Shown here in pieces: positions 1 through 50,480 of a stretch of 64,000 bases of DNA (position 1 is the stretch's first letter; every line of letters starts with the position of its first letter). Made by a program: the position numbers and the translations under genes. Source of the stretch: Amycolatopsis sp. NBC_01480. GTDB taxonomy: Bacteria; Actinomycetota; Actinomycetes; Mycobacteriales; Pseudonocardiaceae. The notes below the pieces were generated by a model, which did no database searches, had not been told where the DNA came from, and worked only from the letters and a program-made list of their open reading frames with translations. The DNA lies in the NCBI RefSeq assembly GCF_036227205.1, contig NZ_CP109442.1, positions 1,178,001-1,242,000 on the forward strand, in the 5' to 3' direction.

Positions 1-2200
<2,200 letters not shown>

Positions 2201-2340: not shown

Positions 2341-2448
2341 GTTGTCGCTGCCACCCGGGAATGTCAGATTTCCTTCAGCTTCAAGGATTTCTCGCACTTC
2401 ACGAATGTCACCGTGCTCGGAGCTCGCCGAACAGACTGGGGAATCGGT

Positions 2449-8441: not shown

Positions 8442-8518
8442 GGTCAGCTCCTCGACGCAGGCGGTCATCTTCCTGCCCTGACGACGGTTCCAGCCGTGCC
8501 CTAAGTGCAGCCAACCGC

Positions 8519-8601
8519 GATCTAAAGTCACCCGAAGGGGCGTCTTGACTACGGACTGTCGCTACCGCTAAAGGCGCCCTTGGCCCAAGAGCTAGGGGTT
8601 G
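8519..8601. promoter_or_regulatory. Divergent promoter region with regulator-like boxes
   Basis: The spacer between the LAL gene (-) and the thioesterase (+) holds TCTAAAG at about 8521, CTAAAG at about 8571 and GCTAGGGGTTG at 8591-8601. These resemble half-sites of the boxes found upstream of other cluster genes. Autoregulation by the LAL protein is plausible but untested. Confidence 0.4.
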
Positions 8602-15000: not shown

Positions 15001-17432
15001 CATCGCGGTGAGCACCGCCGAAGGACCGACCTCGACGAACGTGGTGACGCCCGCGTCGAGCAGCGTGCGGACCCCGTCGGCGAACCGGACGGCGTCGCGG
15101 ACCTGCCTCACCCAGTACTCCGGCGAGGCCAGGTCGGCGTCGGGGGAAACCGTGGAGATGATCGGGATCTCGGGCGCGCGATAGGTCAGATTGCGGGCGA
15201 TGAAGGCGAAGTCCGCCAGCATCGGCTCCATCAGCGACGAGTGGAACGCGTGCGAAACCTTCAGCCGCGACGTCTGCTCGAACTTCGACGCCACGGTGAG
15301 CACCGCGTCCTCGTCACCGGAGAGCACCACGGATGCCGGCCCGTTCACGGCGGCGATCGACACCCCATCGGTCAGCAGCGGCAGGACGTCCGCTTCGGTC
15401 GCGGCCACGGCGACCATCGCGCCTCCGGCCGGCAACGCCTGCATCAACCGCGCCCGGGCCGTCACCAGCGTGCAGGCGTCCTCGAGCGAGAGCACGCCGG
15501 CGACGTGCGCCGCGGCCAGCTCGCCGATCGAGTGTCCCAGCAGGTAGTCCGGCCGGACGCCCCAGGACTCCAGCAGCCGGAATACCGCGACCTCGACCGC
15601 GAACAGCGCGGGCTGCGTGTACCCGGTCTCGCCGGAGCCGAGCACGGTCCGCAGCGGGACGTCCAGGTGCTTGTCCAGCTCGGCGGCCACCAGGTCGAAG
15701 ACCTCGGCGAACGCCGGGTACGCCGCGGCCAGCTCCAGCCCCATCCCGGCGCGCTGCGCGCCCTGGCCGGTGAACAGGAACGCGGTGCGCCCCGCCGCGG
15801 CAGCGTTCTCAGCCGAGCCCTCGACGATCCCCGCGGGCGCCCGGCCCGCCGCGAACTCGCCGAGCGCCCGGACCGCACCGGCCCGATCGGCGGCCACGAC
15901 ACCGGCGCGGTGCTCCGCGAGCGTGCGGGTGGTCGCCAGCGAGAACCCGATGTCCGCAGTGGACGCGTCCGTGGCGAACTCGGCAAGGCTGCCCGCCTGG
16001 GCCCGCAGGGCTTCCGGGTCGTTGGCGGACAGGAGCCACGTCACCGGGGCCGAGTCCGTCGCATCCCCGGCCGCAACAGGATCACCCTGCTCGACGATCA
16101 CGTGCGCGTTGGTCCCGCTGATGCCGAACGAGGACACCCCGGCCCGCCGGGCCCGCCCGGTCTCCGGCCACGGCCGCTGCTCACTGAGCAGCGAGACCGT
16201 GTCCGTCCATTCGACGTGCGGTGACGGCTCTTCCGCGTGCAGTGTGCGGGGCAGGACGCCGCGCCGCAGCGCCTCCACCATCTTGATCACGCCGCCGACC
16301 CCGGCGGCCGCCTGGGTGTGGCCGACGTTCGACTTGAACGAGCCCACGTGCAGCGGACGCTCCGGCGTGGCCACCTTGCCGTAGGTCGCGATCAGCGCCT
16401 GCGCCTCGATCGGGTCGCCCAGCTTCGTGCCGGTGCCGTGCGCCTCGACGGCGTCCACATCGGACAGTCCCAGCCCGGCGTCGGCCAGCGCCGCGCGGAT
16501 CACGCGCTGCTGGGCCGGGCCGTTGGGGACGGTGATGCCGCTCGACGCGCCGTCGGAGTTCACCGCGCTGCCCCGCAGCACCGCCAGCACGTGGTGGCCG
16601 TTCTTCCGCGCGTCGGAAAGCCGTTCCAGCAACAGCATCCCGGCGCCCTCGGAGCAGCCGACGCCGTCGGCGCCGCTGCCGAACGCCTTGCAGCGCCCGT
16701 CCGAGGAGAGCCCGTGCTGCTCGCTGAAGTAGACGAACATGTCCGGCGTCACCATCACGGTCACGCCACCGGCCAGCGCCAGCGAGCACTCGCCGCGGCG
16801 CAGGGCCTGCGCCGCCCAGTGCATGGCCACCAGCGAGGACGAGCACGCCGTGTCCACCGACACCGACGGGCCTTCCAGCCCGAGGGTGTAGGAGACGCGT
16901 CCGGAGATCAGGCTGCCGTCGCTGCTGCCCGCGCCGTAGTCGTGGTACATGACGCCGGCGAATACGCCGGTCTTCGAGCCGCGCAGGGTCGACGGCACGA
17001 TTCCGGCGCGTTCCACGGCCTCCCACGCCGTTTCCAGCAACACCCGCTGCTGGGGGTCGAGCGTGAGCGCCTCACGGGGTGAGATCCCGAAGAACTCCGG
17101 CTCGAAGTCCGCGGCCTCGTAAAGGAAGCCGCCCTCCTTCGAGTAGGTCGTGCCGGGCGGGCCGGCGGGGTCGAACAGCGCGGCGGTGTCCCAGCCGCGG
17201 TCCTCGGGGAACTCGCCGATCGCGTCCGTGCCGCCGGCGACGAGGTCCCACAGCTGCGCGGGCGTGCTCACCCCGCCGGGGAACCGGCAGCCCATGCCGA
17301 TGATCGCGATCGGCTCGGTCATCGCCGCGGTGAGCTTCTTGTTGTCCGCCTTGAGCTGCTCATTGTCCATCATGGACTGGCGCAGGGCGGCGACGATCTG
17401 CTCGGTCGACGGCTGCGTGCTGGGTGACTGCG

Positions 17433-17436
<4 letters not shown>
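12064..17436 (-). CDS. Type I modular PKS, one module: KS-AT-DH-KR-ACP (module 4)
   Basis: A 1790-residue single-module PKS. An N-terminal coiled-coil docking helix (about 8-40) precedes the KS, with its cysteine near 197 and intact EAHGTGTK and SNVGHTQ histidines. AT: GHSIGE near 639 and HAFH, predicting malonyl-Co[13 protein letters not shown] near 932 and DAALH, both intact. KR: GGTGVLG near 1375 with Ser/Tyr and a VDD fingerprint, predicting B-type stereochemistry. ACP: LGFDSL near 1680. A C-terminal docking tail ends in [18 protein letters not shown]. No ER or thioesterase is present. The GTG start overlaps the upstream PKS stop as GTGA, so the two are translationally coupled. The predicted action is one two-carbon extension leaving a double bond. 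Confidence 0.96.
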
Positions 17437-33569
<16,133 letters not shown>

Positions 33570-33660
33570 TACGCACTCCACCGCGGTAGCAAGGCAGCAT
33601 TCAGGGTTGTTGGCGGGATCGTAAGGCGGCTCGGCGCCGGTCCGGATCCCCAGAAAAGCC

Positions 33661-33670
33661 GGTTAGGGGC
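33661..33670 (+). promoter_or_regulatory. Single TAGGGG half-box before the large PKS
   Basis: GGTTAGGGGC lies in the 107-base gap between the P450 stop and the PKS start, about 92 bases upstream of ATG 33569. It is a half-site only, and in the opposite orientation to the other PKS and starter-gene boxes, so evidence for function is weak. Confidence 0.25.
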
Positions 33671-33676
33671 GGGAAA

Positions 33677-34873
33677 TCACCAGGCGACGCGCATCTCGGA
33701 AGGCCCTCGCACGATCACGCCGTACTCCCATTTCACGCCCTCGCGGCCGTCCGCGAAGCGCAGTTCCGGGAACCGGGCGAGGATCGCCTTGAGCGCCTCC
33801 TGCAGCTCCAGCCGGGCCAGCTGCGCACCGATGCAGTGGTGCGGGCCGTGCCCGAACGCCACGTGCGGGTTGGGGCTGCGCGTCAGGTCGATGGTGTCCG
33901 GGTTCGCGAACACCTCCGGGTCGCGGTTGGCCGCGTGCAGCGCCGGCAGCACCGGGTCGCCCGCGCGCACCACGACGTCGCCGAAGCGGATGTCCTCGGT
34001 GGCGTACCGGGCGAACATCGCCGCGGTGTTGATCGGCACGTAGCGCAGCAGCTCCTCCACGGCCGTCGGCATCAGGTCCGGGTTGGCGCGCAGCAGCGCC
34101 AGCTCGTCCGGATTCGTCAGCAACGTGAAGATGAAGCTCGGCAGCGCCGTGGAAACCGTCTCCACACCACCGGTCAGCAGGCCGGCGCCGGCGATGGAGA
34201 TCAGCTCGTTCTCGCTGAGCTTGTCCCCCGCGTCCCGCGCGTAGACGAGCGCGCCGAGCAGGTCGTCGGTCGGCTCCTCACGGCGCTGGGCCACCAGGCC
34301 GGCGACGTACGCGTCGAGCTGGTCGCCGTAGACGTCGAGCACGTCGCCCTTCGCCGTGGCGTCGCTGACCAATGCCTGCGTCCACTCGCGGAAGATCTTG
34401 TGGTCGTCCTTCGGCACCCCGAGCAGGTCGCAGATCACCGTGACGGGCAGCGGCCGCGCCAGCTGCTCGACCAGGTCGGCCGAGTCCCCCCCGGCCACCA
34501 TCTCGTCCAGCAGCCGGTTGACCAGCTCCCGCACGCCCTCGCGCATCTGCTCCAGCCGGCGCGCGGTGAACGCCTTGCCCACCAGCCGCCGCAGCCGCGA
34601 GTGGTCCGGCGGGTCCATGCCCATGATGCCGTCGCCCATCTGCTGGCGGCGCATCCGCGGCTGGTCCAGGCCCTGCGCCAGCTCGCGGCTGAACCGCGCG
34701 TCGGTGGTGACCAGCTTGACGTCGGCGTACCTCGTCGCCAGCCAGGCCGCCTCGCCGAACGGCATCTGCACCCGGCTCAACGGCTCTTCGCGCTGCAGGA
34801 CGTGGTACTGCTCGGAAACGGAGATCTCGTGCATGTCGAACGGATAAGCCCGCACGGTCCGTCGGGTGCTCAT
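33677..34873 (-). CDS. Cytochrome P450 (CYP107-like bacterial tailoring enzyme)
   Basis: A 398-residue soluble bacterial P450. The I-helix reads LLTGGVETVS (Gly-Gly-x-Glu-Thr variant), ExxR is in VEELLRYV, and the haem loop FGHGPHHCIG places the cysteine ligand near residue 347. The expected role is hydroxylation or epoxidation of the macrolactam ring; the site cannot be read from the sequence. ATG 34873 overlaps the glutamate mutase stop as ATGA, so it is co-translated with the starter-unit genes. The PKS start follows 107 bases downstream. No ferredoxin gene is in the window, so electrons probably come from general reductases. Confidence 0.95.
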   Translation of the reverse strand: MSTRRTVRAYPFDMHEISVSEQYHVLQREEPLSRVQMPFGEAAWLATRYADVKLVTTDARFSRELAQGLDQPRMRRQQMGDGIMGMDPPDHSRLRRLVGKAFTARRLEQMREGVRELVNRLLDEMVAGGDSADLVEQLARPLPVTVICDLLGVPKDDHKIFREWTQALVSDATAKGDVLDVYGDQLDAYVAGLVAQRREEPTDDLLGALVYARDAGDKLSENELISIAGAGLLTGGVETVSTALPSFIFTLLTNPDELALLRANPDLMPTAVEELLRYVPINTAAMFARYATEDIRFGDVVVRAGDPVLPALHAANRDPEVFANPDTIDLTRSPNPHVAFGHGPHHCIGAQLARLELQEALKAILARFPELRFADGREGVKWEYGVIVRGPSEMRVAW

Positions 34874-36210
34874 CGCGAATCCCCTCCAATCGCGGTCATC
34901 GGCTGCTCCAGGAACTGGGCGTCGTAGGTGTTCTGGACATGCGAAAGCGCCGACATCAGCGTCGACGAGGTGATCTTCCCCGGGCTCCGGCGCTCCACGA
35001 CGTGCCGGAGCGGGAGCGAGCCGAGGTCGGACCAGCCGAGCCGGCCCTGGCTGTCGAGGTAGCTGCGGGCCTGCCCGGCGTTGTCCGGGTGCAGGCAGAA
35101 CGGGACGTCGAGCAGGCCGCGCTTGAACGCGACCACGATCGCGCGGCCGAGGTCGGCGTGGCTGTTCAGCACGGCGTCGACAAGCGCGTACGCCTCACGG
35201 TAAACTTGATTGTCACTGTCCACTGGGGTTTTGGTGATGGCGGCCTTGGTGGTGACTCCTCGCGCGGTCGCGCCCGCGTGCTCCAGCGCCGCGATGTTCT
35301 CCGCGACGGTCGGGATCCGGTGCGCCTCCGCGACCGTCTTCACGATCAGCCGCTCCGAGTCCGTGGTCATGGCCAGTTCGGCGGCTTTCGCGAGCAGGCC
35401 GCGCGCGCCGTCCGGAGTGCGCGGGAACAGGCCCATGTACGCGTAGATGACCACGTGCCAGGTGGCCCCTGGCAGCAGCTCGGCGCACAGCCGGCGCAGC
35501 GCGGACACGGCCTCCTGGTCCTGCGTCATGTCGGTCTGCTGCGCGTAGCTCACCGAGATGCTGCGCAATCCCTTGCGGTAGAAGAACAACGCCTCCAGCA
35601 CGCTCAGCGCCACCAGCTCGCTGGGCGGGCACAGCTGGCCCATCATGCAGCCGCCGAACGTCTCCAGGTGCGGGCGCCCGGCCGGGTGCTCGGCGTCCAT
35701 CAGCAGGTCGCAGCAGTGGGACCAGTTGCGCACGGCCTCGTCGAGCGGTGTGCGGCTGTAAGGCAGGCAGTAGGAGACGGGGCCGCCTTCGGTGGCGTGC
35801 AGGCCGGCCTTGATCATCGCGCGGAAGATGTCCGCGGGCCGCGCCGAGCCGTGCCGCACCTGCACCGGGAAGTCCGGGCCCTCGATGCCGTCGAGCATGG
35901 CTCGCGTGACCTCGGCGGGATGGTTGACGATCGGGTAGCCGTTCAGCGCGATTCCGTTGCGCAGCGCGTGCGCCACGGAATCGGTGTCGCAGACGCGGGT
36001 GTAGCTGTCGAGCGTGACGGTGCCGACGGTCGCCGCGGCCGCCGCCTTGGTCGCGGCCAGCCCGGCCCGCATCACCACGGGATCGGCGAAGCCCAGCCGC
36101 GGCTGCACCACGAGTTCGCCGGCCGCGTGCCGGCTCGCGACGAACTCTTCGAAGCTCATGCCGCGCACCTGCTCGTGAGTGGTGAAGACGGTTCTAACCG
36201 GTACCGCCAC
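34870..36210 (-). CDS. Glutamate mutase epsilon (large) subunit-like
   Basis: A 446-residue homologue of the catalytic TIM-barrel subunit of adenosylcobalamin-dependent glutamate mutase, which interconverts L-glutamate and (2S,3S)-3-methylaspartate. It is recognisable by RHGSARPADIFRAM and CLPYSRTPLDEAV in the barrel and by the adjacent small cobalamin-binding subunit. In vicenistatin-type clusters a pair like this makes the 3-methylaspartate precursor of the starter. The GTG start at 36210 gives a protein slightly shorter than catabolic homologues. It lies 16 bases after the small subunit and overlaps the P450 by 4 bases. No GlmL/MutL-type reactivating chaperone gene is visible. Confidence 0.92.
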   Translation of the reverse strand: MAVPVRTVFTTHEQVRGMSFEEFVASRHAAGELVVQPRLGFADPVVMRAGLAATKAAAAATVGTVTLDSYTRVCDTDSVAHALRNGIALNGYPIVNHPAEVTRAMLDGIEGPDFPVQVRHGSARPADIFRAMIKAGLHATEGGPVSYCLPYSRTPLDEAVRNWSHCCDLLMDAEHPAGRPHLETFGGCMMGQLCPPSELVALSVLEALFFYRKGLRSISVSYAQQTDMTQDQEAVSALRRLCAELLPGATWHVVIYAYMGLFPRTPDGARGLLAKAAELAMTTDSERLIVKTVAEAHRIPTVAENIAALEHAGATARGVTTKAAITKTPVDSDNQVYREAYALVDAVLNSHADLGRAIVVAFKRGLLDVPFCLHPDNAGQARSYLDSQGRLGWSDLGSLPLRHVVERRSPGKITSSTLMSALSHVQNTYDAQFLEQPMTAIGGDSR

Positions 36211-36226
36211 TCACGAGCCCCGGTAC

Positions 36227-36718
36227 TCACGTGCCCTCCACCCGTACCGGCAGCTGGGCACCAGCCCCCGGCAGCGCCGCCGCGAACTGGCGGAACGAGG
36301 CCGCGCCCTGATGGTCGTCGAACACCGCGTCGAACCCGGCCAGCAGCAGCTGCCCGGTCTCCTCCTCGGTGAGCGGCCCGCCGACGCCGAGCTTGCCGCC
36401 GATCACCACCGGCAGCGCCCGCAGCTCCTCGAACGCCCGCAGCCGCTGGACCACCCGCAGGCCGTCCTGGTAACCGTGGCCGTTGACGCTGCTCAGCACG
36501 AGCATCGCGGGACGGCGGCTCAGGCACTCGGACTCCAGCAGCTCGTCCGGCACGCACGCGCCGAGGTTCACCACGTCGAAGCCCAGCTCGCCGACCAGCA
36601 GCTCCAGGTACACCAGGTTCCAGGTGTGCGAATCCGAGGCCATGCTGCTGACGATCACCGTGCGGCGGTCCGGCACGGCCGCGATACTTCCGCCGTACGC
36701 GCGCATCTCTTCGCTCAT
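36227..36718 (-). CDS. Glutamate mutase sigma (small, B12-binding) subunit-like
   Basis: A 163-residue Rossmann-like cobalamin-binding protein partnering the epsilon subunit. The B12 signature reads DSHTWN near residue 27: the axial-ligand His and its Asp are present, but the Gly of the usual DxHxxG is Asn. Later landmarks are the LSSVNGHG and VIGGKLGVGG loops. The true start is ATG 36718, which overlaps the decarboxylase stop as ATGA; the frame stays open further upstream only by chance. The product, 3-methylaspartate, would be the substrate of the VinN-like ligase encoded two genes upstream. Confidence 0.9.
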   Translation of the reverse strand: MSEEMRAYGGSIAAVPDRRTVIVSSMASDSHTWNLVYLELLVGELGFDVVNLGACVPDELLESECLSRRPAMLVLSSVNGHGYQDGLRVVQRLRAFEELRALPVVIGGKLGVGGPLTEEETGQLLLAGFDAVFDDHQGAASFRQFAAALPGAGAQLPVRVEGT

Positions 36719-37929
36719 GGGGAGACCTCGTAAACCCGCTGGTAGTCCAAACGCGACACCGAGACGACGTCCCCGCCGCGCACCACGACCTCCGTCGGGG
36801 CCGGGCGGCCGAGGAAGCTGATCAGGCTGGCGGTAACGCCGTACGCGCCGACGTTCGGCACCGTCACCACGTCGCCGGCCGACAGCTCGGGCACCTTGGC
36901 CGCCTTCGCCAGCGAGTCGCCGGGAGTACACAGTGGACCGACCAGGCTGCCGGTCAGCGGGGCCTCACCGTCGACGCCGATCGCGGCGGGCAGCAGCCGG
37001 CCGATGCCGGACAGACCGCCGAGCACGTTGATCCCGCCGTCAAGGATGACAAACCGCTGGCCGCGGCTCTCCTTGACGTTGACCACGCCGGCCAGCAGCG
37101 AGCCGCTGCTGCCGGACAGGTAACGGCCGGACTCGCAGGCCAGCTCCATGCCGCCGTCACGCCACTCGGGCAGGTACAGGTCGAGCAGCACTTCCAGCCC
37201 GGCGCGCAGCTTCGGGTAGTCGGTGCGCGGGCCCGGCACCGCGTACGGCGAGGAGAAACCACCGCCGATGTCCAGGAACTCCAGCGGCAGCCCGACTTCC
37301 TGGCGAAGCTGCGCGGCCGACTGCAACACGAACTCGTACTCGGCGAGCAGGCTGTCCTCGTCCTGCGCGTTGCTCATGGTGAAGAAGTGCGCGCCGACGA
37401 CGCGAGTGCCGGGCACCGACTTGAGCGCTGGCATCAGCGAGGGCAGCGTCTCGGCGTCGATGCCGAACTGCGAGGGACGGCCCATCATCCGGATGCCGCT
37501 GGACGCGCTGCCCTGCGTGGTGTTGACGCGCAGCAGGCAGGACACCGTCACGCCGTGCTTCTCCGCCGCGGCGCCGACGTGCTGCAGGTCCGAAAGCGAC
37601 TCGACGGAGAACATCCGGACGCCGGTGGCGATCGCGTGCTCCAGCTCGCCGTTCGTCTTGCCGGGCCCGGTGTAGAGGATCTCGCCCGGCTCGAAGCCGG
37701 CGGCGAGCGCGTTCGCCAGCTCGCCGGTGGAGCTGATCTCCGCGCGGCAGCCGCCGGAACGCAGCTCACGCGCGATCTCCGGGTGCGGGTTGGCCTTCAG
37801 CGCGTAGTACAGCTGGAAGCCTTCGGGCAGCAGGCCGAAGAGCTGGTCGCGGGACTCGGCGACCACGTCGAGGTCGTAGACGTAGGTGGGCGTGCCGAAT
37901 TTCTCGGCCAGCGCCGGGTACTTGCTCAT
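36715..37929 (-). CDS. vinO: PLP-dependent 3-methylaspartyl-ACP decarboxylase (VinO-like)
   Basis: A 404-residue fold-type III PLP decarboxylase of the diaminopimelate/ornithine decarboxylase family. The PLP lysine lies in YYALKANPHP near residue 47, the glycine-rich phosphate loop is DIGGGFS, and the substrate-contacting CESGRYL is near 260. In vicenistatin biosynthesis VinO decarboxylates 3-methylaspartyl-VinL to the 3-amino-2-methylpropionyl thioester; the same role is inferred from the complete surrounding cassette. ATG 37929 overlaps the VinN-like stop, and its own stop overlaps the next ATG, so three genes are chained by ATGA overlaps. A free amino-acid decarboxylase is the general alternative. 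Confidence 0.88.
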   Translation of the reverse strand: MSKYPALAEKFGTPTYVYDLDVVAESRDQLFGLLPEGFQLYYALKANPHPEIARELRSGGCRAEISSTGELANALAAGFEPGEILYTGPGKTNGELEHAIATGVRMFSVESLSDLQHVGAAAEKHGVTVSCLLRVNTTQGSASSGIRMMGRPSQFGIDAETLPSLMPALKSVPGTRVVGAHFFTMSNAQDEDSLLAEYEFVLQSAAQLRQEVGLPLEFLDIGGGFSSPYAVPGPRTDYPKLRAGLEVLLDLYLPEWRDGGMELACESGRYLSGSSGSLLAGVVNVKESRGQRFVILDGGINVLGGLSGIGRLLPAAIGVDGEAPLTGSLVGPLCTPGDSLAKAAKVPELSAGDVVTVPNVGAYGVTASLISFLGRPAPTEVVVRGGDVVSVSRLDYQRVYEVSP

Positions 37930-39407
37930 GCCTGGGCACCTTCCACCAGCAGGGCGAGTTCTTTGGTCGCGTTCTTGCCATGGGCCGTGAGCGGGAACTC
38001 GTCGACGACGTGGCACAGCGACGGGACCTTCTGCGGTTCCAGCCGCTGGGCCAGCTCCCGCAGGACCGTGGTCGGCGCGAGGTCGCTCTCCACGCAGATG
38101 GCCAGGTCCCGCGTCTCGCTCGGCGGGATCGCGCCGGCCGCGCGCACCCCGGGGATGTCCATCGCCGCGGCCTCGATCTCCAAAGTGGACATCCGGATGC
38201 CCTTGCGCTTGAACATGTCGTCGCGGCGGCCTTCGAAGTAGAGGTAGCCGTCGGCGTCCAGGCGGCCGTAGTCGCCGGTGTGCAGGCGGAGCCCGCCGGT
38301 GGCCTCGTCCGGCCGGAACGCGCGGGCGGTCAGCTCCGGCGCGCGCCAGTAGCCGGGCATCACGTGCGGGCCGGCCGCCACGATCTCGCCGATGTCGCCG
38401 GCCGGAAGCTCGGTGCCGTCGGCCGCCAGGATGTGCACGGACGTGCCAGGCAGCGGCAGCCCGGACGCGCCCGGACGTTCAGTGTCCTCTTCGGGCGGCA
38501 TGATGGTGATCCGCTTGCACTCGGTCTGGCCGAACTGGCGGACCACGCGGGCGCCCGGGAAAGCGTTACGCAGCTTGGTGATGGTCGCGTCGGGCAGCGC
38601 GGCGCCGGTGTTGGTGAACAGGCGCACCGGCGCGGCGCCGGCCGTGTCGCGTTCGGCCAGGGTGGCGATCATCGTGGCGAGCGAAGGGACGATGGGGACC
38701 ACCGTGGCGCCGACCTCGCGCATCCGCTGCAGCAGCCGCAGGTCGGATTCCGCGTCGGCGAGCACGATCTCGCTACGGCCGAGGGTGGCCAGCAGGACCT
38801 TGTAGAGGCCGTAGTCCCAGGACATCGGGAACCGGCAGAACACCACGTCGTCGCCGCGGTAGCCGAGCACGGCCTGGATCGCGCGGGCGGCGAAGGTGAC
38901 CTGCCGGTGCGGGCCGATCACGCCCTTGGGCGCGGCGGTGCTGCCGGAGGTGTAGATGAGCACGGCGACGTCGTCGGGCGCCACCTCGGTCGGCTCGGCC
39001 CGTTCGCCGGCTCGGAACGCCGCGTCGATCTCATTCCACAGTGGACCGAACTCGGCGGGCGTGAGCACCAGCCGCGGCTCGGCGTTGGCCACCACGGAGT
39101 CGAAGTGGAACTTCTTCATCGCCGGGTTGATCGGCACGAACACCGCGCCCCGCCGGGTGGTCCCGTAGAACAGCGCGACCAGCTCGCGGTTGGTCGGCAG
39201 CTGCACGACCACGCGGTCGCCATGCCCCACCCCGCGACGGGCGAGCACGGCCTCCACCGCGCGGCTCCACTCCGCGACCTCCGCGTAGGTCCACGCGCCT
39301 TCACGGTCGCGCACCGCCGTGGCCCCCGCCGCGTCGGCCACTGCCTCGTCCAGCAGCGAAAACACCAGCGAACCGCCAGGAGAATCGTCCACCACTGCCA
39401 CTCCCAT
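37926..39407 (-). CDS. vinN: 3-Methylaspartate:ACP ligase, VinN-like adenylation enzyme
   Basis: A 493-residue stand-alone adenylation enzyme that activates a beta-amino acid as AMP ester and loads it on the discrete ACP. Core motifs are YTSGSTAAPKG near 152-162, GQTE near 293-296, the HTGDYGRLD loop near 376 and the C-terminal lysine in HGKNATKE. From memory of the VinN structure, an Asp contacts the amino group (D230) and a Lys-Arg pair the carboxylate (K330, R331). Here D198 and K298-R299 fall at exactly the same spacing, which supports 3-methylaspartate as substrate. ATG 39407 has a poorly spaced GAGAG, and a GTG about four codons in is possible. A strong double TAGGGG box lies 96-113 bases upstream. 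Confidence 0.9.
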   Translation of the reverse strand: MGVAVVDDSPGGSLVFSLLDEAVADAAGATAVRDREGAWTYAEVAEWSRAVEAVLARRGVGHGDRVVVQLPTNRELVALFYGTTRRGAVFVPINPAMKKFHFDSVVANAEPRLVLTPAEFGPLWNEIDAAFRAGERAEPTEVAPDDVAVLIYTSGSTAAPKGVIGPHRQVTFAARAIQAVLGYRGDDVVFCRFPMSWDYGLYKVLLATLGRSEIVLADAESDLRLLQRMREVGATVVPIVPSLATMIATLAERDTAGAAPVRLFTNTGAALPDATITKLRNAFPGARVVRQFGQTECKRITIMPPEEDTERPGASGLPLPGTSVHILAADGTELPAGDIGEIVAAGPHVMPGYWRAPELTARAFRPDEATGGLRLHTGDYGRLDADGYLYFEGRRDDMFKRKGIRMSTLEIEAAAMDIPGVRAAGAIPPSETRDLAICVESDLAPTTVLRELAQRLEPQKVPSLCHVVDEFPLTAHGKNATKELALLVEGAQA

Positions 39408-39502
39408 GCTCTCGACGGGCCTGCCCCGGATGACTGCGTGCCGGCGCGGAAACTCCTCCCCCGACTTCGCAGAAAGCTAGCCGCGGCGGCTCGGCCGGCC
39501 AC

Positions 39503-39520
39503 ACCCCTAGCGGCCCCTAA
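39503..39520 (-). promoter_or_regulatory. Putative cluster regulator box, double TAGGGG
   Basis: The coding strand reads TTAGGGGCCGCTAGGGGT: two TAGGGG elements with a 10-base period. It is nearly identical to the box at 50481-50498 and at a similar distance (about 100 bases) from its start codon. It is probably the operator of the starter-cassette operon that begins at 39407. Confidence 0.6.
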
Positions 39521-39544
39521 CCGACCTCCCGGGCGGGCACGCGA

Positions 39545-39588
39545 AAAAGGCCTGCCCTGCCGGGAAACCCAGGCAGAGCAGGCCTTTT
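39545..39588. terminator. Intrinsic terminator hairpin
   Basis: AAAAGGCCTGC pairs with GCAGGCCTTTT, and an inner CTGCC pairs with GGCAG around a short loop. The A/T tails on both sides make it effective in both directions. It ends the minus-strand membrane-protein gene and shields the starter-operon promoter. Confidence 0.88.
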
Positions 39589-39603
39589 CAGATTCGCTTC
39601 AGG

Positions 39604-39975
39604 CTAGCCGCGCACACCCGAGCGCCGGCGGCCGACGTGGTGCGCGATGGCGACGGCGATGCCCACCGCGACAACGGCTCCGGTCGCGACCGGACTCAGG
39701 AACTTCGACAGGCTCGGCGCACTGTTCGGCCCGATCAGCCAGACCGCCAGCGGCACGGCGTACGCCGCGGTGACCGCCGCCGTCCACCAACCCAGAGCAC
39801 GCAGCCGGGCGTCCCGCAGGGTCCCGATCAACACGACCGCGATCGGGAGACCGGCCATCAAGGCGAACTGGCCGAGCACGAAAACCGGGACCAGCCAAGC
39901 CGCGATCAGCACGGTCAGCGAGGTACGGCGGACAGCGGCGGTGACGCGGTCGACGGTCGGGGTGGCGGTGGTCAT
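39604..39975 (-). CDS. Small integral membrane protein, unknown function
   Basis: A 123-residue protein with about four hydrophobic segments, at roughly 20-40, 43-58, 63-85 and 93-110, ending in a basic HHVGRRRSG tail. No family is recognised. The start ATG 39975 has AGGAG at a good distance. It lies between the VinN- and VinM-like genes but has its own terminator and an unusually AT-rich upstream region with a long inverted repeat, so it may be regulated separately. A role in export or resistance is conceivable from position only. Confidence 0.7.
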   Translation of the reverse strand: MTTATPTVDRVTAAVRRTSLTVLIAAWLVPVFVLGQFALMAGLPIAVVLIGTLRDARLRALGWWTAAVTAAYAVPLAVWLIGPNSAPSLSKFLSPVATGAVVAVGIAVAIAHHVGRRRSGVRG

Positions 39976-40014
39976 CGTCTACTCCTGCGGGTCGGCGGCT
40001 GGCGCTTCTTGCGA

Positions 40015-40075
40015 TAGTTAGAAGCTATAACACTCCCTTCCGGGAGGCAATAGGCAAAGTGAGATGTTCTAACTA
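40015..40075. promoter_or_regulatory. AT-rich promoter region with perfect 9-bp inverted repeat
   Basis: TAGTTAGAA (40015-40023) and TTCTAACTA (40067-40075) are exact inverted copies 43 bases apart. A small CTCCC-TTCC-GGGAG hairpin and TATAAC lie between. It lies upstream of the membrane-protein gene. This could be a looping operator or a relic of an inserted element. Confidence 0.5.
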
Positions 40076-40086
40076 GACGCGGCAAC

Positions 40087-41616
40087 TCACCCCACCGGCA
40101 CCGGACTCAGCAGCTCGGCCGCCACCCCCGCGAGCGCCTTGCGGTCGATCTTTCGGTTGGTGTTCAGCGGGAACTCGTCGACATGGCGGTAATGCCGCGG
40201 GATCACCCCCTCCGGCAGCACCTGCCGCAGCGCGCGGACCAGCTCGATGACCGGACGTTCCCCGCCGGTGTAGAAGACGAACAGCTCGGTGCCCGCGTCA
40301 CCCGCGACGCCGAGGGCCACCGCGTCCAGCACGCCGCAGTCGCGCAGCGCGTGCTCCACCTCCGTCAGCTCGATGCGCCAGCCGAGCACCTGAACCTGCG
40401 AATCGAGCCGGCCGAGGTACGCCAGATCGGCCCCCTCGAGACGGCGGACGCGGTCGCCGGTGCGGTAGAAACGGCGGCCGTCACGGTCGAGGAAACGGCC
40501 GCGTTCGTCGGCGGGGTCGAGGTACCCCGGCGTCAGCTGCGCGCCGGCGATGGCCAGCTCACCCTCCTCGGCCTCCTCGACGTCACCCGGGCCGAGAAGC
40601 AGATAGTCGTGGCCCGCGTGCACTTCCCCGATCGGGACCACGCCGTTCACCGCGACCTCCGGCGTCACCTCGTCGTCCCACCGATAGCCCGCGACGGTGA
40701 TGGTCAGTTCGGTGGGGCCGTACAGGTTCTCCGCGATCGCGTTCGGCGCCGCTATCCGCCAGTCCGCCGTGTCCCGCACGGTCAGCGCCTCGCCCGCGAA
40801 GAAGCTCCAGCGCAAGCCCGGCAGCGCGCCAGGGGTGAGCCCGCCGGTGCGGCGGACCAGATCGATCGCGCTCGGCGTGGAGAACCACACCGTCAGCCCG
40901 CGCTCGGCCGCGAACGCCGGCAGGTTCCGGTACGCCGTGCCGGGCAGCACCACCGCGGGCGCCCCCGCGCCCCAAGCGCAGAACAGGTCGAACATCGCGC
41001 AGTCGAAGTTCAGGTCGAAGGTCTGCGAGAACACGTCGTCCGGGGTGAAGTCGTACCGCTCGTCGAGCAGGCCGAAGTAGTGCTCGGTGGCGGCGTGGCC
41101 GATCCGGACCCCCTTGGGCCGCCCGGTGGAGCCGGAAGTGAACAGCACGTACGCGCTGTCGTCGGGACGCACCGGCCGCGGCGCCGTCAGCGCCTGGGAC
41201 TCCCGCGGCCGCAGAACCGACGGCTGGTCACCGCATTCCGGCGCCAGCACGGTCAACGGCCGCGCCTCCGGCAGCAGGGTGAGGCCACGAGCGTCCGCCA
41301 CCACCGCGTCCACTTCGGCCGCCTCGATCATCTGCGCGGTCCGGGCCGCCGGGAAGTCCGGGCGCAGCGGAACCACCGTCGCGCCGGCGTACAGCCCGGC
41401 CAGGATCCCGGCGTAAGCGGTGACGCCCTTGCCCGCCAGCACCCCTACGGTCCGGGCACCGGACTCGGCCAGCGCACCGCCCCACAGCAGCGCCAGCTCG
41501 TGCAGCCGGTCGTAGGTGACGGCCTGCTCACCCACGTGGACGGCCACGCCGCCGTCCGATCGTTCGAGGCCGCGCAGGAATCGCGAGTGCAGTCCGCCGG
41601 TGAAGCTCGTGTCCAT
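40087..41616 (-). CDS. vinM: Stand-alone amino acid ligase (VinM-like), caps the starter amine
   Basis: A 509-residue NRPS-type adenylation enzyme without carrier domain. It shows LFTSGSTGRPKGVRIGH near 157, NLYGPTEL near 291, the YRTGDRVRR loop and a C-terminal NRKIDRKAL with the catalytic lysine. In vicenistatin-type pathways VinM transfers an activated amino acid (alanine in the vin system) onto the amine of the ACP-bound beta-amino acyl unit, protecting it from premature cyclisation. I chose ATG 41616 because GGAGGA precedes it; an upstream in-frame extension lacks one. It is divergent from the ACP gene with an inverted repeat between. Its amino acid specificity cannot be assigned with confidence here. 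Confidence 0.88.
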   Translation of the reverse strand: MDTSFTGGLHSRFLRGLERSDGGVAVHVGEQAVTYDRLHELALLWGGALAESGARTVGVLAGKGVTAYAGILAGLYAGATVVPLRPDFPAARTAQMIEAAEVDAVVADARGLTLLPEARPLTVLAPECGDQPSVLRPRESQALTAPRPVRPDDSAYVLFTSGSTGRPKGVRIGHAATEHYFGLLDERYDFTPDDVFSQTFDLNFDCAMFDLFCAWGAGAPAVVLPGTAYRNLPAFAAERGLTVWFSTPSAIDLVRRTGGLTPGALPGLRWSFFAGEALTVRDTADWRIAAPNAIAENLYGPTELTITVAGYRWDDEVTPEVAVNGVVPIGEVHAGHDYLLLGPGDVEEAEEGELAIAGAQLTPGYLDPADERGRFLDRDGRRFYRTGDRVRRLEGADLAYLGRLDSQVQVLGWRIELTEVEHALRDCGVLDAVALGVAGDAGTELFVFYTGGERPVIELVRALRQVLPEGVIPRHYRHVDEFPLNTNRKIDRKALAGVAAELLSPVPVG

Positions 41617-41683
41617 CGTGGTCCTCCGCCAGTAATAGGGGTACTGATGCGTCGATCCGGGACGGCGACGCGAGGTAGAGTCC

Positions 41684-41708
41684 AAAACCGAACCGGGCGG
41701 TCGGTTTT
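41684..41708. promoter_or_regulatory. Palindromic operator candidate between vinM- and vinL-like genes
   Basis: AAAACCGA (41684-41691) and TCGGTTTT (41701-41708) form a perfect 8-bp inverted repeat with a 9-base spacer that is itself nearly symmetric. It sits in the 130-base divergent gap, 39 bases before the ACP start. The shape is typical of TetR-family operators; the cognate repressor is unknown. Confidence 0.6.
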
Positions 41709-41746
41709 ATGCCTGGGAGATCCGAACCTAGTCATCCGGAGCAGCC

Positions 41747-42046
41747 ATGTGGGACAGCACTTTCGACGAGACCCTTCGCACGTTCCTTCCGTTCCTGCCC
41801 GCCGAGGAGGCGCTGACCGCCGAAACCCCGCTGCGGGAGTACGGGCTCGACTCGCTCGCGACCGTCGAGCTGCTCGCCTTGCTGGAGCAGAACTACAACG
41901 TGCGCTTCGAGGACGACGCCCTGAACCTGGAAACGTTCGAGAACCCCGGCCGCCTGTGGGCGACCCTGACTGGCCTCCTGCCGCAGAGCGCGGACCAGCT
42001 CGATGGCCGGCCGCTCTCCGCCGAGCAGAAGCAGCCGGCTAGCTGA
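41747..42046 (+). CDS. vinL: Discrete acyl carrier protein (VinL-like)
   Basis: A 99-residue stand-alone carrier protein; the phosphopantetheine serine is in YGLDSLATVELL near residue 35. In the vin system VinL carries 3-methylaspartate, then 3-amino-2-methylpropionate, then the aminoacyl-capped dipeptide, until VinK passes it to the PKS. The ATG has GGAG 6 bases upstream. It is the only plus-strand gene within the otherwise minus-strand starter cassette, and its last 8 bases overlap the end of the VinK-like gene tail to tail. Confidence 0.93.
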   Translation: MWDSTFDETLRTFLPFLPAEEALTAETPLREYGLDSLATVELLALLEQNYNVRFEDDALNLETFENPGRLWATLTGLLPQSADQLDGRPLSAEQKQPAS

Positions 42047-42998
42047 CGCGCGAGGGACCCGCGCCCCGGCGGCGTGGCTGAAGGGCCATCCGCGGGTTCA
42101 CGGTGACCACCTCGAACCGGCTCGTGGTGGCGCGGACCCGGCCGAACAAGGTGTCCGGTCCCGCCACCCAGAGCTTCCGGACGCCGAGCTGCTCCAAGGA
42201 GGACACGACATGCGGCCAGCGCAGCGGTTTGACGATGCTGTCCAGCAGCATCGTGCGCACCTGCTCGCCGGTGCGCAGGATCGAGCCGTCCTGGTCGGCG
42301 ACGATGGGCAGCAGCGGGTCGTGGAAGTCGAGTCCACCGAGGACTTCGTCCTCCGCTTTGCGCCGCAGCGCCCCGAAAGCGCCCGAATGCAACGGTGGCC
42401 GCATCGTGTAGAGCGACAGCCCGCCGATGCTCCGGATCGTCTGCTTGAGCCAGTCGAGGTTCCGCTCGCGCAGCGAGACCATGTAGAAGTCGTGGTCGAT
42501 GTAACACGAGATGTCGGACCACTCGCCGCGGCCTTCCAGCTCGGTGAGAGCGTCCTTGAGCTTCTCCTCCGGGGTGCGGACGAACGAGTGCGTGACCACG
42601 TCGGTGTGCTCGGTGGCGAAGAACTCGTTGAGGCAGCGGGCGAGTTCCGAGGTCATCCACACGGCGTCGGGGAAGGTCAGCGAGCCGGCGTACACACTGG
42701 CCGGCTTCTCGCCGAAGCTCGGCCCGGTGCAGTAGTCGGGGCTGAGCTCGTACTCCTGCTCGGCCCATTCGGCGAGGGCGAGACAGGTCAGCATGAAGCC
42801 GACCTGGGCGTACTCGGAGTAGTCGCCGTCGGCCTCGCGGAAGTTGTCGACCAGCGAGTAGCCCAGCCGGTCGTTCGCCTCCTTGATCAGCCGCCGGGCG
42901 AACGGGTTGATCAGCAGGAACTTCCCGAAGTCGGCGAACCGGCACGGGCTCATCCCGGGGAACACGACCGCCGATCCGGCCCGGTTGGCCTCATCCAT
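42039..42998 (-). CDS. vinK: Trans-acting acyltransferase (VinK-like), ACP to PKS transfer
   Basis: A 319-residue discrete malonyltransferase-fold protein. The nucleophile motif is GPSFGE near residue 93 rather than GHSxGE, with an N-terminal VFPGMSP oxyanion loop and a histidine-containing HSGAFGALRR segment near 200. VinK homologues move the dipeptidyl starter from the discrete ACP to the N-terminal ACP of the first PKS, which fits the lone loading ACP of the large PKS here. Its start ATG lies inside the 8-base overlap with the peptidase gene, so the two are translationally coupled. It would not be expected to handle malonyl-CoA. Confidence 0.92.
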   Translation of the reverse strand: MDEANRAGSAVVFPGMSPCRFADFGKFLLINPFARRLIKEANDRLGYSLVDNFREADGDYSEYAQVGFMLTCLALAEWAEQEYELSPDYCTGPSFGEKPASVYAGSLTFPDAVWMTSELARCLNEFFATEHTDVVTHSFVRTPEEKLKDALTELEGRGEWSDISCYIDHDFYMVSLRERNLDWLKQTIRSIGGLSLYTMRPPLHSGAFGALRRKAEDEVLGGLDFHDPLLPIVADQDGSILRTGEQVRTMLLDSIVKPLRWPHVVSSLEQLGVRKLWVAGPDTLFGRVRATTSRFEVVTVNPRMALQPRRRGAGPSRVS

Positions 42999-43941
42999 GG
43001 CTGGCGACCTCTCGCTCGGCGGCCCGGAACGCGGGCTCGCAGGGGTGGACCTCTTGCAGGAAACTCAGCAGTACCTCCTGGAACCGCTCGGGCTCCTCGA
43101 GGTGCGGGACGTGACTGGAGTGCTCGAAAATCTCCCAGCGCACGTCGTGGATCCGGTCGAAGTACGGCTGGACGGTCACCGGGGTGGCCTCGTCGTGCCG
43201 GCCGGAAATGAGCAGGGTCGGTGCCTCGATGTCGTCGAGGTACTCGATCACGGAATAGTCCTTCAGCGTGCCCGAGACGGTGAACTCGCTCGGCCCGTTC
43301 ATCGTGGCGTAGACGGTGTTGTCCTCCGCCATCTCCATGAACGAGGCGAGGTAGTCACTCGGCCACGGCAGCTCCCGGCACACGTGGCGGTCGTAGAACA
43401 CCCGCATCAGGTCGAAGTACTCCTGCGAGCTGGTGGTGCCGGCCGCCTCGTGCGCCCGCAGCAGGGCGTCCACACCGGGCGGAAGCTGCGCGCGGAGCAC
43501 GTCCATTTCCTGGCGCCACAACGGGTACGAGGCGGGCGAGTTGGCGATCACCAGCCCCCGCAGGCCGTCCGGGCGCTGCGCGGCGTGCCGGGCGACGACC
43601 AGCCCGCCCCACGACTGTCCATACAGGACGTAGTTGTCCTCGATGCCCAGCCGGTGCAGCAGGTTGTCCAGCTCGTCGGCGAACAGCCCCGGGGTCCAGA
43701 AGTCCGCGCCCCGGTCCGGCAGGTGCGTCGAACCGCCGCTGCCCAGCTGGTCGTAGTGCACCACCGGCCACCCGTGCCCGGCCAGCTCGCCGAGGTTGCG
43801 CAGGTAGTCGTGGGTGCTCCCGGGCCCGCCGTGGACCACGACCACGGTGGGCAGCTCGCCGCCGGCGACGCCGGTGACCCGATACCAGGTGCGGTACTCG
43901 CCGAAGGGAACCCAGCCCTTCGCGGTGGGTGCCACGGCCAT
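42991..43941 (-). CDS. vinJ: Proline iminopeptidase-family amidase (VinJ-like), removes the aminoacyl cap
   Basis: A 316-residue alpha/beta-hydrolase of the prolyl iminopeptidase family. HGGPGSTHDYL is the oxyanion loop near residue 37, the nucleophile lies in GQSWGG near 106, and ISGRHDEATP plus EHSSHVPHLEEP carry Asp and His. In vicenistatin biosynthesis VinJ cuts the terminal alanyl group from the finished chain so the freed amine can close the ring. I chose ATG 43941, 8 bases after GAGG; ATG 43947 and GTG 43950 are closer to the site. It heads the VinJ-VinK operon, and CTTTAG-type boxes lie 95-130 bases upstream. Confidence 0.92.
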   Translation of the reverse strand: MAVAPTAKGWVPFGEYRTWYRVTGVAGGELPTVVVVHGGPGSTHDYLRNLGELAGHGWPVVHYDQLGSGGSTHLPDRGADFWTPGLFADELDNLLHRLGIEDNYVLYGQSWGGLVVARHAAQRPDGLRGLVIANSPASYPLWRQEMDVLRAQLPPGVDALLRAHEAAGTTSSQEYFDLMRVFYDRHVCRELPWPSDYLASFMEMAEDNTVYATMNGPSEFTVSGTLKDYSVIEYLDDIEAPTLLISGRHDEATPVTVQPYFDRIHDVRWEIFEHSSHVPHLEEPERFQEVLLSFLQEVHPCEPAFRAAEREVASHG

Positions 43942-44035
43942 GCTCATCACCTCTTCGTCTCCCTCGTCCGGCCGGGCCTCGGATGCTGGCGGCCGGATCC
44001 ACCTTCATGTCTATCCGCCGCGCACGTGCCGTCAC

Positions 44036-44068: not shown

Positions 44069-44239
44069 TACAACCACCTCCTTACTGCGCAACGGATCCC
44101 CAGCGGAAGGCCACAGCGGCGGAACAGGGGTGCGCGACCCCTAGCCGCCGCTTCCCGGGTCGGCCGGACGGCTCATCGGGACTACTTTTTTCCCTGTACC
44201 AGCAGTGGTTTTCCACCCGTGACATCGGAGAGTGCGGCC

Positions 44240-45502
44240 ATGCGTGTTTTGCTGATGGTGTTTCCGACGAGGACGCACGTCTACAGCATGGCGCCGGTCG
44301 GCTGGGCGCTGGCCGCGGCCGGGCACGAGGTCCGCTTCGCCGGGCAGCGCAATCCGCGTGAGGTGGAGTCGTTCGCCGAGACCGGCCTCGACGCGATGTG
44401 GTTCGGCGGTGAGCTGGACATCGCGCGGCATCGCCAGCTCCAGGTCGACGGCAACAACGCGATGCAGGGCGACTTCCGCATCTCGGAGAGCCGGCCGGAG
44501 CGCTACACCGAAGAGTACGTGCGCAACGTCTACGAGCACTGGGTCGAGGTCTTCCGCTGGACCACCCCGGAGCCGCTGCTCGACGAGCTGGTCCGGTTCG
44601 CCCGGCAGTGGCAGCCGGACCTGATCGTCTGGGACCCGATGATCTACGCCGCGCCGATCCTCGCGCAGGCGATCGGCGTGCCGCACCTGAGGATGATGTA
44701 CGCCGCCGACCAGACCGCGCGGATCGGCGCCCAGTACCGCGACCTGCGCGCGAGCCGGCCGCAGGACACGACGCCGGACCCGTTCGTGGAGTGGATGTCC
44801 GCGGCGGTCGGGCGGTTCGGCGCGGACTACGGCGAAGCCTTGCGCTACGGCGTGAAGACGATCGACTGCCACCCGTCCTACCTGCGCTACGAAGGCGTCG
44901 ACGTGGACTACGTGCCGGCCCGGTTCGTCGCGCACAACAAGCCGATGGCGATCCCGCGGTGGGTCCTGGAGAGACCGCGGCGCCCGCGCGTGATGCTGAC
45001 CCTGGGCATCTCGAACCGGCAGGTGCTCGGCGTCGAGGAGACGTCGGTGGCCGACCTGCTCGACGGCCTCGCGGACCTCGACGTCGAAGTGATCGCGACG
45101 CTCAACGCCGCGCAGCTGGCCACCGTGCCCAAGGTCCCGGACAACGTGCGCGCCGTCGACTTCGTGCCGATGAACGAGCTGCTCGCGACCTGTTCGGCGA
45201 TCGTGCACCAGGGCGGCGGCGCGACGATCGGCAACGCCGTGGTCAACGGCGTCCCGCAGCTCGTGATCCCCGGCACCACCTGGAGCGAGCGGGTCTCGGC
45301 GGTCGCGCAAGTCAAGCGCGGCAACGGATTGCTGGTGGACCTGGAGGACGTCACGCCGGGCTCGGTGCGCGAAGGGATCCAGCGGCTGCTGGAGGAGCCG
45401 GGCTTCCGCGAGAGCGCGCTCGAGGTGCGCGATGAGATGCTGGCCACGCCTGCCCTGGACGAGCTGGTGCCGGAGTTCGAACGGATCGCGCGATGCCGGT
45501 GA
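44240..45502 (+). CDS. Family 1 glycosyltransferase (VinC/macrolide type)
   Basis: A 420-residue GT-B fold transferase of the antibiotic family. The N-terminal MVFPTRTHVYSMAPVGWAL segment and the C-terminal donor motif HQGGGATIGNAVVNGVPQLV are typical of enzymes that move an activated sugar to a macrolide or macrolactam hydroxyl. I chose ATG 44240 over the upstream GTG because GGAGAG lies at a normal distance. It is the only glycosyltransferase in the window, so it is the likely partner of the UDP-GlcNAc-derived sugar genes at 2.4-5.6 kb. Most relatives use dTDP-deoxysugars; use of a UDP-aminopentose would be unusual. The last 10 bases overlap the histidine kinase gene. Confidence 0.92.
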   Translation: MRVLLMVFPTRTHVYSMAPVGWALAAAGHEVRFAGQRNPREVESFAETGLDAMWFGGELDIARHRQLQVDGNNAMQGDFRISESRPERYTEEYVRNVYEHWVEVFRWTTPEPLLDELVRFARQWQPDLIVWDPMIYAAPILAQAIGVPHLRMMYAADQTARIGAQYRDLRASRPQDTTPDPFVEWMSAAVGRFGADYGEALRYGVKTIDCHPSYLRYEGVDVDYVPARFVAHNKPMAIPRWVLERPRRPRVMLTLGISNRQVLGVEETSVADLLDGLADLDVEVIATLNAAQLATVPKVPDNVRAVDFVPMNELLATCSAIVHQGGGATIGNAVVNGVPQLVIPGTTWSERVSAVAQVKRGNGLLVDLEDVTPGSVREGIQRLLEEPGFRESALEVRDEMLATPALDELVPEFERIARCR

Positions 45503-46608: not shown

Positions 46609-46657
46609 GTTCCGGCTCTGTTCCAACCCGTTCGGCGAACCCCCTGAGGAGCACCCC

Positions 46658-50380: not shown

Positions 50381-50480
50381 GTTGTCCCACCGCCTGTTCG
50401 TCTCACGGACCAGGGACACGACAACCACCCCCGGCGCCTTCCCGACAAACCACGCTAGCCCGGCGCGGCGCGGCGGAACG

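Follow-up and report, generated by a model that had tools for sequence, protein, structure and literature searches.

A putative beta-amino-acid starter-unit cassette within a probable ciromicin-type polyene macrolactam cluster of an Amycolatopsis strain close to Amycolatopsis saalfeldensis

The window, i.e., the analyzed stretch of 64,000 nucleotides from Amycolatopsis sp. NBC_01480, appears to carry the starter-unit cassette of a ciromicin-type cluster, predicted to specify a 22-membered, xylosamine-bearing polyene macrolactam, in a strain closely related to Amycolatopsis saalfeldensis. From sequence comparison, we assign this reading a probability of about nine in ten. The cassette is an ordinary one, and the cluster closely replicates one of ciromicin type that had been reported earlier from a related Amycolatopsis. 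The features are compiled in Table 1.

Table 1. Features of the cluster located in the window; asa denotes the A. saalfeldensis cluster, and percentages are identities to its copies.
Feature	Position	Strand	Evidence or remark
PKS3, N-terminal part	1..2224	-	~741 residues of module 9 within window; full-length 90.4% to asa P3
PIG-L type sugar deacetylase (predicted xylosamine role)	2413..3132	+	Pfam PIG-L; 92% to asa
Nucleotide-sugar dehydrogenase (predicted xylosamine role)	3209..4501	+	Pfam; TIGR03026 above cut-off; 93% to asa
SDR sugar enzyme (predicted xylosamine role)	4594..5553	+	Pfam Epimerase; 96% to asa
LuxR-family regulator with AAA ATPase domain	5784..8531	-	Pfam GerE + AAA_16
Standalone thioesterase	8637..9404	+	Pfam Thioesterase
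DUF222/HNH gene	10765-12006		Family search
PKS2, module 4	12064..17436	-	Motifs; 89.2% to asa P2
PKS1, loading ACP + modules 1-3	17433..33581	-	Motifs; 96.0% to asa P1
Loading ACP at start of PKS1	33204..33581	-	Pfam PP-binding 7e-11
Cytochrome P450, not a starter function	33677..34873	-	Pfam p450; 97% to A. saalfeldensis cluster copy
Glutamate (methylaspartate) mutase E subunit, VinI type	34870..36210	-	Pfam MutE 3e-85; 96% to A. saalfeldensis copy
Glutamate mutase S subunit (B12-binding), VinH type	36230..36718	-	Pfam B12-binding 9e-10; structure 1cb7 1e-5; motif DSHTWN
PLP-dependent decarboxylase, VinO type	36715..37932	-	Pfam Orn_Arg_deC_N 6e-35; 95% to A. saalfeldensis
Adenylation enzyme, VinN type	37926..39407	-	Pfam AMP-binding 1e-68; VinN structure 3wvn 2e-185
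123-aa ORF between VinM and VinN types	39604..39975	-	Not a starter function
Second adenylation enzyme, VinM type	40087..41685	-	Pfam AMP-binding 2e-50; 96% to A. saalfeldensis
Standalone ACP, VinL type	41747..42046	+ (opposite strand)	Pfam PP-binding 4e-10; VinL 5czd_B 8e-23
Dipeptidyl acyltransferase, VinK type	42039..42998	-	Pfam VinK_C 1e-31; VinK 5czc 1e-130
Amidohydrolase (abhydrolase), VinJ type	42991..43950	-	Pfam abhydrolase 4e-27; VinJ 3wmr 3e-131
EryCIII-like glycosyltransferase	44219..45502	+	Pfam; 97% to asa
Sensor kinase + response regulator pair	45493..47311	+	Pfam
Second standalone thioesterase	49610..50428	-	Pfam Thioesterase; 91% to asa

Whole-cluster comparison covered the genomes of A. 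saalfeldensis DSM 44993 and A. rubida DSM 44637. The cluster extends about 34 kb to the left of the window. It shows collinearity with the A. saalfeldensis asa cluster, in which 32 of its 33 predicted genes have a match: tblastn matched 31 of 32 predicted cluster genes, with order and strand kept, at 84-99.5% amino-acid identity, and the MutS-type protein is additionally matched at 98%. For the polyketide synthases (PKSs), identity to asa amounts to 88.5-96%. The sole gene without an asa match, DUF222/HNH, is not of a biosynthetic type and was rejected as a tailoring enzyme for want of support in family searches; the asa cluster lacks about 2.3 kb corresponding to window positions 9796-12059. 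Long blastn segments against the A. saalfeldensis genome are 89-94% identical, and the strain therefore probably belongs to a different species. Among 80 related loci, 13 show this arrangement again, with cassette, cytochrome P450, glycosyltransferase and two-component genes in the same order; in 13/80, sensor kinase and response regulator both adjoin the glycosyltransferase.

The asa cluster and the pac cluster of Amycolatopsis sp. PS_44_ISF1 are described as being of the ciromicin A type, asa being linked to ciromicin A as well as to the precursor of that compound, a 22-membered xylosamine macrolactam, and as containing six PKS genes, a module 10 without KR and KR6 as the sole KR of A1 type (cluster descriptions in PMC10662134; for background on ciromicin, see PMC5750220). 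The cluster studied here agrees with this description in all three PKS features. Domains past the loading ACP were assigned by motif only; read in this way, the six genes comprise ten modules, with module 9 intact and module 10 devoid of KR. Modules 1-3 of PKS1 each exhibit KS, malonyl-type AT, DH, KR and ACP motifs, DH7 has Asp in place of Gly in the HxxxGxxxxP motif, and PKS3 continues left of the window to position -7657 with the remainder of module 9, a module 10 that shows no KR motif, and TE.

One difference from asa concerns the DH of module 10, whose His and Asp motifs are both present in our cluster, whereas asa has Arg for His; for DH10 of pac, incomplete catalytic residues are described in a passage that leaves the residue unspecified (PMC10662134). 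This difference would be in line with production of a congener distinct from ciromicin A, arising in module 10 or through a difference in oxidation, and PMC10662134 assigns no enzyme to the second oxidation in the ciromicin pathway. According to the same source, the asa cluster in S. albus led to precursor III (m/z 499.28) while ciromicin A (m/z 515.276) was not detected, so that an enzyme encoded elsewhere may be required for the second oxidation. We nevertheless consider such a congener unlikely: in a module without KR, the DH finds no substrate, identity to the asa counterparts is 97% for the P450 and 97 and 87% for the two glycosyltransferases, and the one gene without an asa match is of a non-biosynthetic type.

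The first-pass annotation had put forward a macrotermycin-like glycosylated macrolactam of Amycolatopsis as one candidate product. Family and genus were right, but the nearest match was not: it is asa that is collinear, and A. rubida, reported to hold a cluster nearly identical to that of the macrotermycin producer (PMC10662134), differs in PKS3. The A. rubida (mte type) cluster shares the starter cassette, the sugar genes and PKS1, 2, 4, 5 and 6 with ours, five of six PKSs being 81-85% identical. On the other hand, PKS3 is 58.6% identical to that of A. rubida vs. 90.4% to that of asa, module 9 in A. rubida is without the AT and KR motifs that are all seen here, gene placement differs, and two P450s (84% identity) reside in the A. 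rubida cluster region, as opposed to one among the 23 of 33 genes of our cluster that were run through Pfam (family searches covered all but the genes at -10130, -9013, -8523 and 47394). Furthermore, modules 9 and 10 of PKS3 are both described as lacking crucial domains in the mte cluster, while module 9 is complete by motifs in ours. It is therefore very improbable that we are dealing with a macrotermycin-type cluster, in which the same starter would be combined with inactive PKS3 modules 9 and 10 to give a 20-membered ring, and macrotermycin as nearest product was rejected on PKS3 identity and module 9 motifs.

The view that the product is not vicenistatin itself is supported by homology. 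The vin cluster of Streptomyces halstedii, represented in our comparison by solved proteins only, shares all eight starter enzyme types with the ciromicin-type cluster studied here but has different sugar genes. The vicenisamine route is the expected sugar pathway of vicenistatin, the ring of which is 20-membered vs. 22-membered for the ciromicin type. Clusters of ciromicin type are characterized by three xylosamine genes and by a pair of glycosyltransferases of which one is short. In agreement with the latter, the two EryCIII-like glycosyltransferases of our cluster comprise 427 and 306 aa; they are 97 and 87% identical to asa. No Pfam or NCBIfam family model names xylosamine enzymes for the three sugar genes (92-96% to asa), and for the SDR sugar enzyme, the NCBIfam models for dehydratases, epimerases and UDP-xylose synthase all remained below cut-off.

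Within the cassette, all eight starter functions claimed earlier for positions 33569..43941 were located there by Pfam, allowing for ATG vs. GTG starts. Matches to sequences of solved structures were found for five of the eight enzymes (the search was run for five), while the VinM, VinO and MutE type assignments are based on Pfam matches, gene position and identity with the A. saalfeldensis copies; the true start of the VinM-type gene may lie downstream of TTG. The five enzymes common to clusters for macrolactams with beta-amino-acid starters are present (VinN, VinM, VinK and VinJ types and a standalone ACP), as are the genes of the 3-amino-2-methylpropionate (3-Amp) subtype, i.e., mutase E and S and the VinO-type decarboxylase, beside the VinN-type gene. 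The lone ACP proposed to open the first PKS, a further trait of such clusters, was confirmed as a PP-binding domain at residues 53-104 with the motif HGFDSL. Scores with the NCBIfam mutase models fell short of the curated cut-offs (175.5 vs. 390.1 bits for the E subunit, 49.2 vs. 110 for the S subunit), which places the mutase on a divergent branch; a TIGR01501 survey (cobalamin motif) yielded matches in 189 of 197 genomes, none above the family cut-off. The 123-aa ORF has no Pfam match and a counterpart in one of 80 related loci, that of A. saalfeldensis, and agrees with PMC10662134, where an additional gene is noted between asaD and asaE.

With regard to the substrate of the VinN-type enzyme, D198, K298 and R299 do align at a constant offset of 32 with VinN D230, K330 and R331 (numbering from PMC11253843; roles of pocket residues in PMC11253843, PMC9484153, PMC7756342 and PMC12186527). 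The residues cited as substrate evidence are thus present, but they do not establish specificity for 3-methylaspartate: the triad occurs in 80/80 related loci, five of which come from four genomes lacking a mutase E match, and therefore cannot separate 3-methylaspartate from aspartate. Three documented pocket positions are changed relative to VinN (F231 to Y199, S299 to T267 and M323 to Q291), and the same Y199, T267 and Q291 are found in the VinN-type enzyme of the ciromicin A producer PS_44_ISF1, the one pac protein compared (93% identity). Q291 was rejected as a specificity marker, since Met is found in VinN itself and likewise in enzymes with Phe197/Gln203. The window enzyme carries Trp197/Lys203, as VinN does; of 75 loci with this pair, 74 go together with mutase E, compared with none of the five that have Phe/Gln. 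The adjacent mutase genes are better evidence for 3-methylaspartate than the VinN residues. Glutamate mutase is absent from the three known fluvirucin-type (beta-alanine) pathways as described in PMC10662134 and PMC11284099, in contrast to the mutase E and S genes of our cluster. That the cassette feeds aspartate toward such a beta-alanine starter is extremely improbable, for although VinN itself accepts L-Asp at low efficiency, a vinI mutant gave a desmethyl product (PMC11284099) and the triad extends to loci from genomes without a mutase E match, the mutase genes share a gene row with the VinN-type gene and the Trp/Lys pair takes the place of Phe/Gln. Rather doubtful at present is the combined proposal that the strain makes a ciromicin congener and not ciromicin A, and that Trp197/Lys203 vs. 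Phe197/Gln203 is an unused marker distinguishing glutamate-mutase-fed (3-methylaspartate) from direct-aspartate beta-carboxylate adenylation enzymes, D230/K330/R331 being uninformative.

Homology supports both the 3-amino-2-methylpropionate starter and the macrolactam product predicted earlier. By analogy with homologous pathways, from which the chemical steps, PKS order, sugar and product are all deduced, the MutE/MutS pair would convert L-glutamate to (2S,3S)-3-methylaspartate, which the VinN-type enzyme would adenylate and load onto the VinL-type ACP. There, the VinO-type enzyme would catalyze decarboxylation to 3-amino-2-methylpropionyl-ACP, whose amine the VinM-type enzyme would then protect by attaching a small amino acid, which is Ala in the case of vicenistatin. 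The VinK-type enzyme would pass the protected unit on to the PKS1 loading ACP. The six PKS proteins with their ten modules would extend the chain, presumably in the order PKS1-2-4-5-6-3, with module 10 probably adding nothing. Removal of the protecting amino acid is predicted for the VinJ-type enzyme, lactam closure for the PKS3 thioesterase, and finishing steps for the P450, the two glycosyltransferases and the sugar genes.

For macrolactam clusters of this kind, product predictions should be drawn from the mutase genes and from further positions, not from the usual VinN residues. As an additional ciromicin-type cluster, the one described here is useful for comparing PKS3 as the ring-size determinant and for comparison regarding the unexplained enzyme of the second oxidation.

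The eight starter genes that the first-pass annotation had recognized (MutE, MutS, VinO, VinN, VinM, VinL, VinK and VinJ types) are present at the place it gave, as borne out by Pfam matches to MutE, a B12-binding domain, a PLP decarboxylase, two AMP-binding proteins, a phosphopantetheine carrier, VinK_C and an alpha/beta hydrolase. For five of the eight proteins, the top solved-structure matches by sequence are VinN (3wvn), VinK (5czc), VinL (5czd chain B), VinJ (3wmr) and glutamate mutase S (1cb7). The mutase genes score under the curated cut-offs of the NCBIfam mutase models and therefore constitute a divergent branch. The mutase S subunits of this cassette type carry Asn (DSHTWN or DAHTWN) instead of the Gly found in the B12 motif (DxHxxG) of the solved glutamate mutase (DCHAVG); this Asn occurs in 73 of 73 aligned MutS sequences, i.e., that of the window and 72 homologues from the fetched loci. 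The VinL-type gene lies on the + strand and the other cassette genes on the opposite strand. Two non-starter genes reside inside the interval, a P450 and a 123-aa ORF, and the latter is consistent with the additional gene that PMC10662134 mentions between asaD and asaE. In agreement with the earlier reading, the first PKS is ACP-initiated, a phosphopantetheine domain preceding the first ketosynthase of PKS1. The cassette is real, complete and was correctly read.

The proposed starter steps follow the vicenistatin pathway (PMC11284099). The mutase would act first, the VinN-type enzyme would load the starter amino acid onto the VinL-type carrier, and decarboxylation would take place there. The VinM type would then cap the starter and the VinK type transfer it, followed by PKS extension, uncapping by the VinJ type and, as the last step, ring closure by the TE.

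At the same time, the cassette is ordinary. It belongs to one more example of a cluster type already known, and this cluster is collinear with asa, the ciromicin-type cluster of Amycolatopsis saalfeldensis DSM 44993 (locus L016). The VinN-type genes of the two strains are 98% identical. The cluster extends about 34 kb beyond the left edge of the window (C1:1178001-1242000; genome size 10.1 Mb). In the stretch that runs from PKS6 through the thioesterase at 49610, 31 of 32 predicted genes match asa in tblastn with 84-99.5% amino-acid identity and with order and strand kept, the single exception without an asa match being a DUF222/HNH gene.

Selected features of the cluster, its surroundings and the A. 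rubida region (window numbering unless a contig is named; negative values lie left of the window)
Feature	Position	Observation
DH10 catalytic His (PKS3 residue 2666)	~-5774 (L011, ~14226)	Kept; Arg in A. saalfeldensis
Deacetylase, nucleotide-sugar dehydrogenase and SDR enzyme (three sugar genes)	2413-5553	92-96% identical to asa genes at the same place
Stretch of ~2.3 kb containing the DUF222/HNH endonuclease gene	9796-12059	Missing at the same place in A. saalfeldensis
DUF222/HNH gene	10765-12006	
Starter cassette	33569-43941	
MutS	36230-36718	98% identical to the A. saalfeldensis copy
123-aa ORF	39604-39975	Matched in 1 of 80 loci (best 80 of 129), A. saalfeldensis
Predicted genes outside the cluster	56648-57622, 57619-58767, 58812-59639	Without match in the A. 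saalfeldensis stretch; flanking genes on both sides match
Three successive + strand genes	60260-63668	94-99% to A. saalfeldensis, 77-89% to A. rubida; start of the third resembles a lipoyl-bearing dehydrogenase E2 (by eye)
Two P450 genes, A. rubida macrotermycin-type region	G002:C24:314065-315255, 342744-343934	Both share 84% identity with the window's single P450

The earlier suggestion of a macrotermycin-type product gives way to a ciromicin type, which fits better. Identity of the PKS proteins to asa amounts to 96.0 (P1), 89.2 (P2), 88.5 (P4), 93.6 (P5) and 93.3% (P6), as compared with 84.2, 81.4, 81.3, 85.3 and 85.2% to the macrotermycin-type cluster of A. rubida DSM 44637, and the gap is widest for P3 with 90.4 vs. 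58.6%. PKS3 of A. rubida comprises 2813 aa and its module 9 is without AT and KR motifs, in agreement with the account of macrotermycin PKS3 in PMC10662134, whereas all motifs are present in module 9 of the window strain. Among the remaining motifs, that of DH7 (HxxxGxxxxP) has Asp for Gly, the Asp motif of DH3 ends in Gly and AT10 carries CAVH where HAFH is expected; a KR10 motif was found neither in the window cluster nor in A. saalfeldensis. The probable order of the PKS chain derives from the published scheme for asa and pac, the same type of cluster in Amycolatopsis sp. PS_44_ISF1, and from the single methylmalonyl module. Two EryCIII-like glycosyltransferases of 427 and 306 aa are encoded, and from PMC10662134 we infer that the three sugar genes make xylosamine.

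According to PMC10662134, strain PS_44_ISF1 was the source of the isolated ciromicin A, and extracts of A. saalfeldensis contained m/z 515.276 and 499.281. The section of that paper on expression of asa in S. albus, which claims less than its title, describes a feature fitting precursor III (m/z 499.28) and no ciromicin A, such that one oxidation may need an enzyme from outside the cluster. On account of these results, the aglycone of ciromicin and the corresponding glycoside can be predicted from the window with good confidence, ciromicin A itself less firmly. The ciromicin producer FU40 is listed as Nocardiopsis in PMC5750220 and as Amycolatopsis in PMC10662134.

A VinN-like gene (E below 1e-120) occurs in 21 of 80 Amycolatopsis genomes including the window's own, and PMC10662134 counts 28 other Amycolatopsis clusters with the same starter. 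Among 80 VinN-like loci from named genomes (best 80 of 129), the cassette types were matched as follows: VinN 80, VinO 79, MutS 72, MutE 71, VinL 60, VinK 59, VinM 58 and VinJ 53, counts that depend on the set thresholds and on contig ends cutting some loci. Thirteen of these 80 (L016-L028) share one gene order: response regulator, kinase, glycosyltransferase, VinJ, VinK, VinL (opposite strand), VinM, VinN, VinO, MutS, MutE and P450. In Streptomyces panaciradicis (L087) and S. xiaopingdaonensis (L090), genes of the VinN, VinO, MutS and MutE types adjoin a gene with a condensation-domain motif, and neither a PKS motif nor VinM, VinL, VinK or VinJ matches were found in the fetched stretches; use of these cassettes in peptide biosynthesis is possible.

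The residues put forward earlier as matching the VinN substrate pocket do align, D198, K298 and R299 corresponding to VinN D230, K330 and R331 at a constant offset of 32. With the same offset, F231, S299 and M323 are replaced by Y199, T267 and Q291, so that three of the six positions with documented roles (PMC11253843, PMC9484153, PMC7756342) differ. What did not hold is the use of the triad for substrate discrimination, since D, K and R are kept in all 80 loci (best 80 of 129), nine of which have no mutase E match in the fetched stretch. In five of these nine (L081, L083, L086, L089 and L093, from Nonomuraea and Kutzneria), Phe197/Gln203 replaces Trp197/Lys203, the pair present in VinN itself. 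L081 and L083 share one assembly according to the record title, and mutase E was not found (E below 1e-20) in any of the four genomes concerned. The other four (L062, L067, L071 and L080) have Trp/Lys; genome searches recovered mutase E for L062, L067 and L080 and did not find it for L071, whose genome is a draft. In total, 74 of the 75 Trp/Lys loci are accompanied by mutase E and none of the five Phe/Gln loci is (best 80 of 129), related sequences that do not represent independent events. L081, L083, L086 and L093 contain all of the VinO, VinM, VinL, VinK and VinJ types. The Phe/Gln loci are possibly aspartate-fed (beta-alanine) macrolactam clusters. Conservation of the triad in loci without mutase E indicates that it marks the beta-carboxylate class and not 3-methylaspartate alone. 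The published descriptions of BolO, a proposed aspartate enzyme retaining Asp230, Ser299 and Arg331, and of AfcQ, which activates L-Asp by assay and carries the Arg331 equivalent, agree with this.

Taken together, the product assignment is improved in favor of the ciromicin over the macrotermycin type, and the quoted VinN residues D/K/R do not discriminate substrates.
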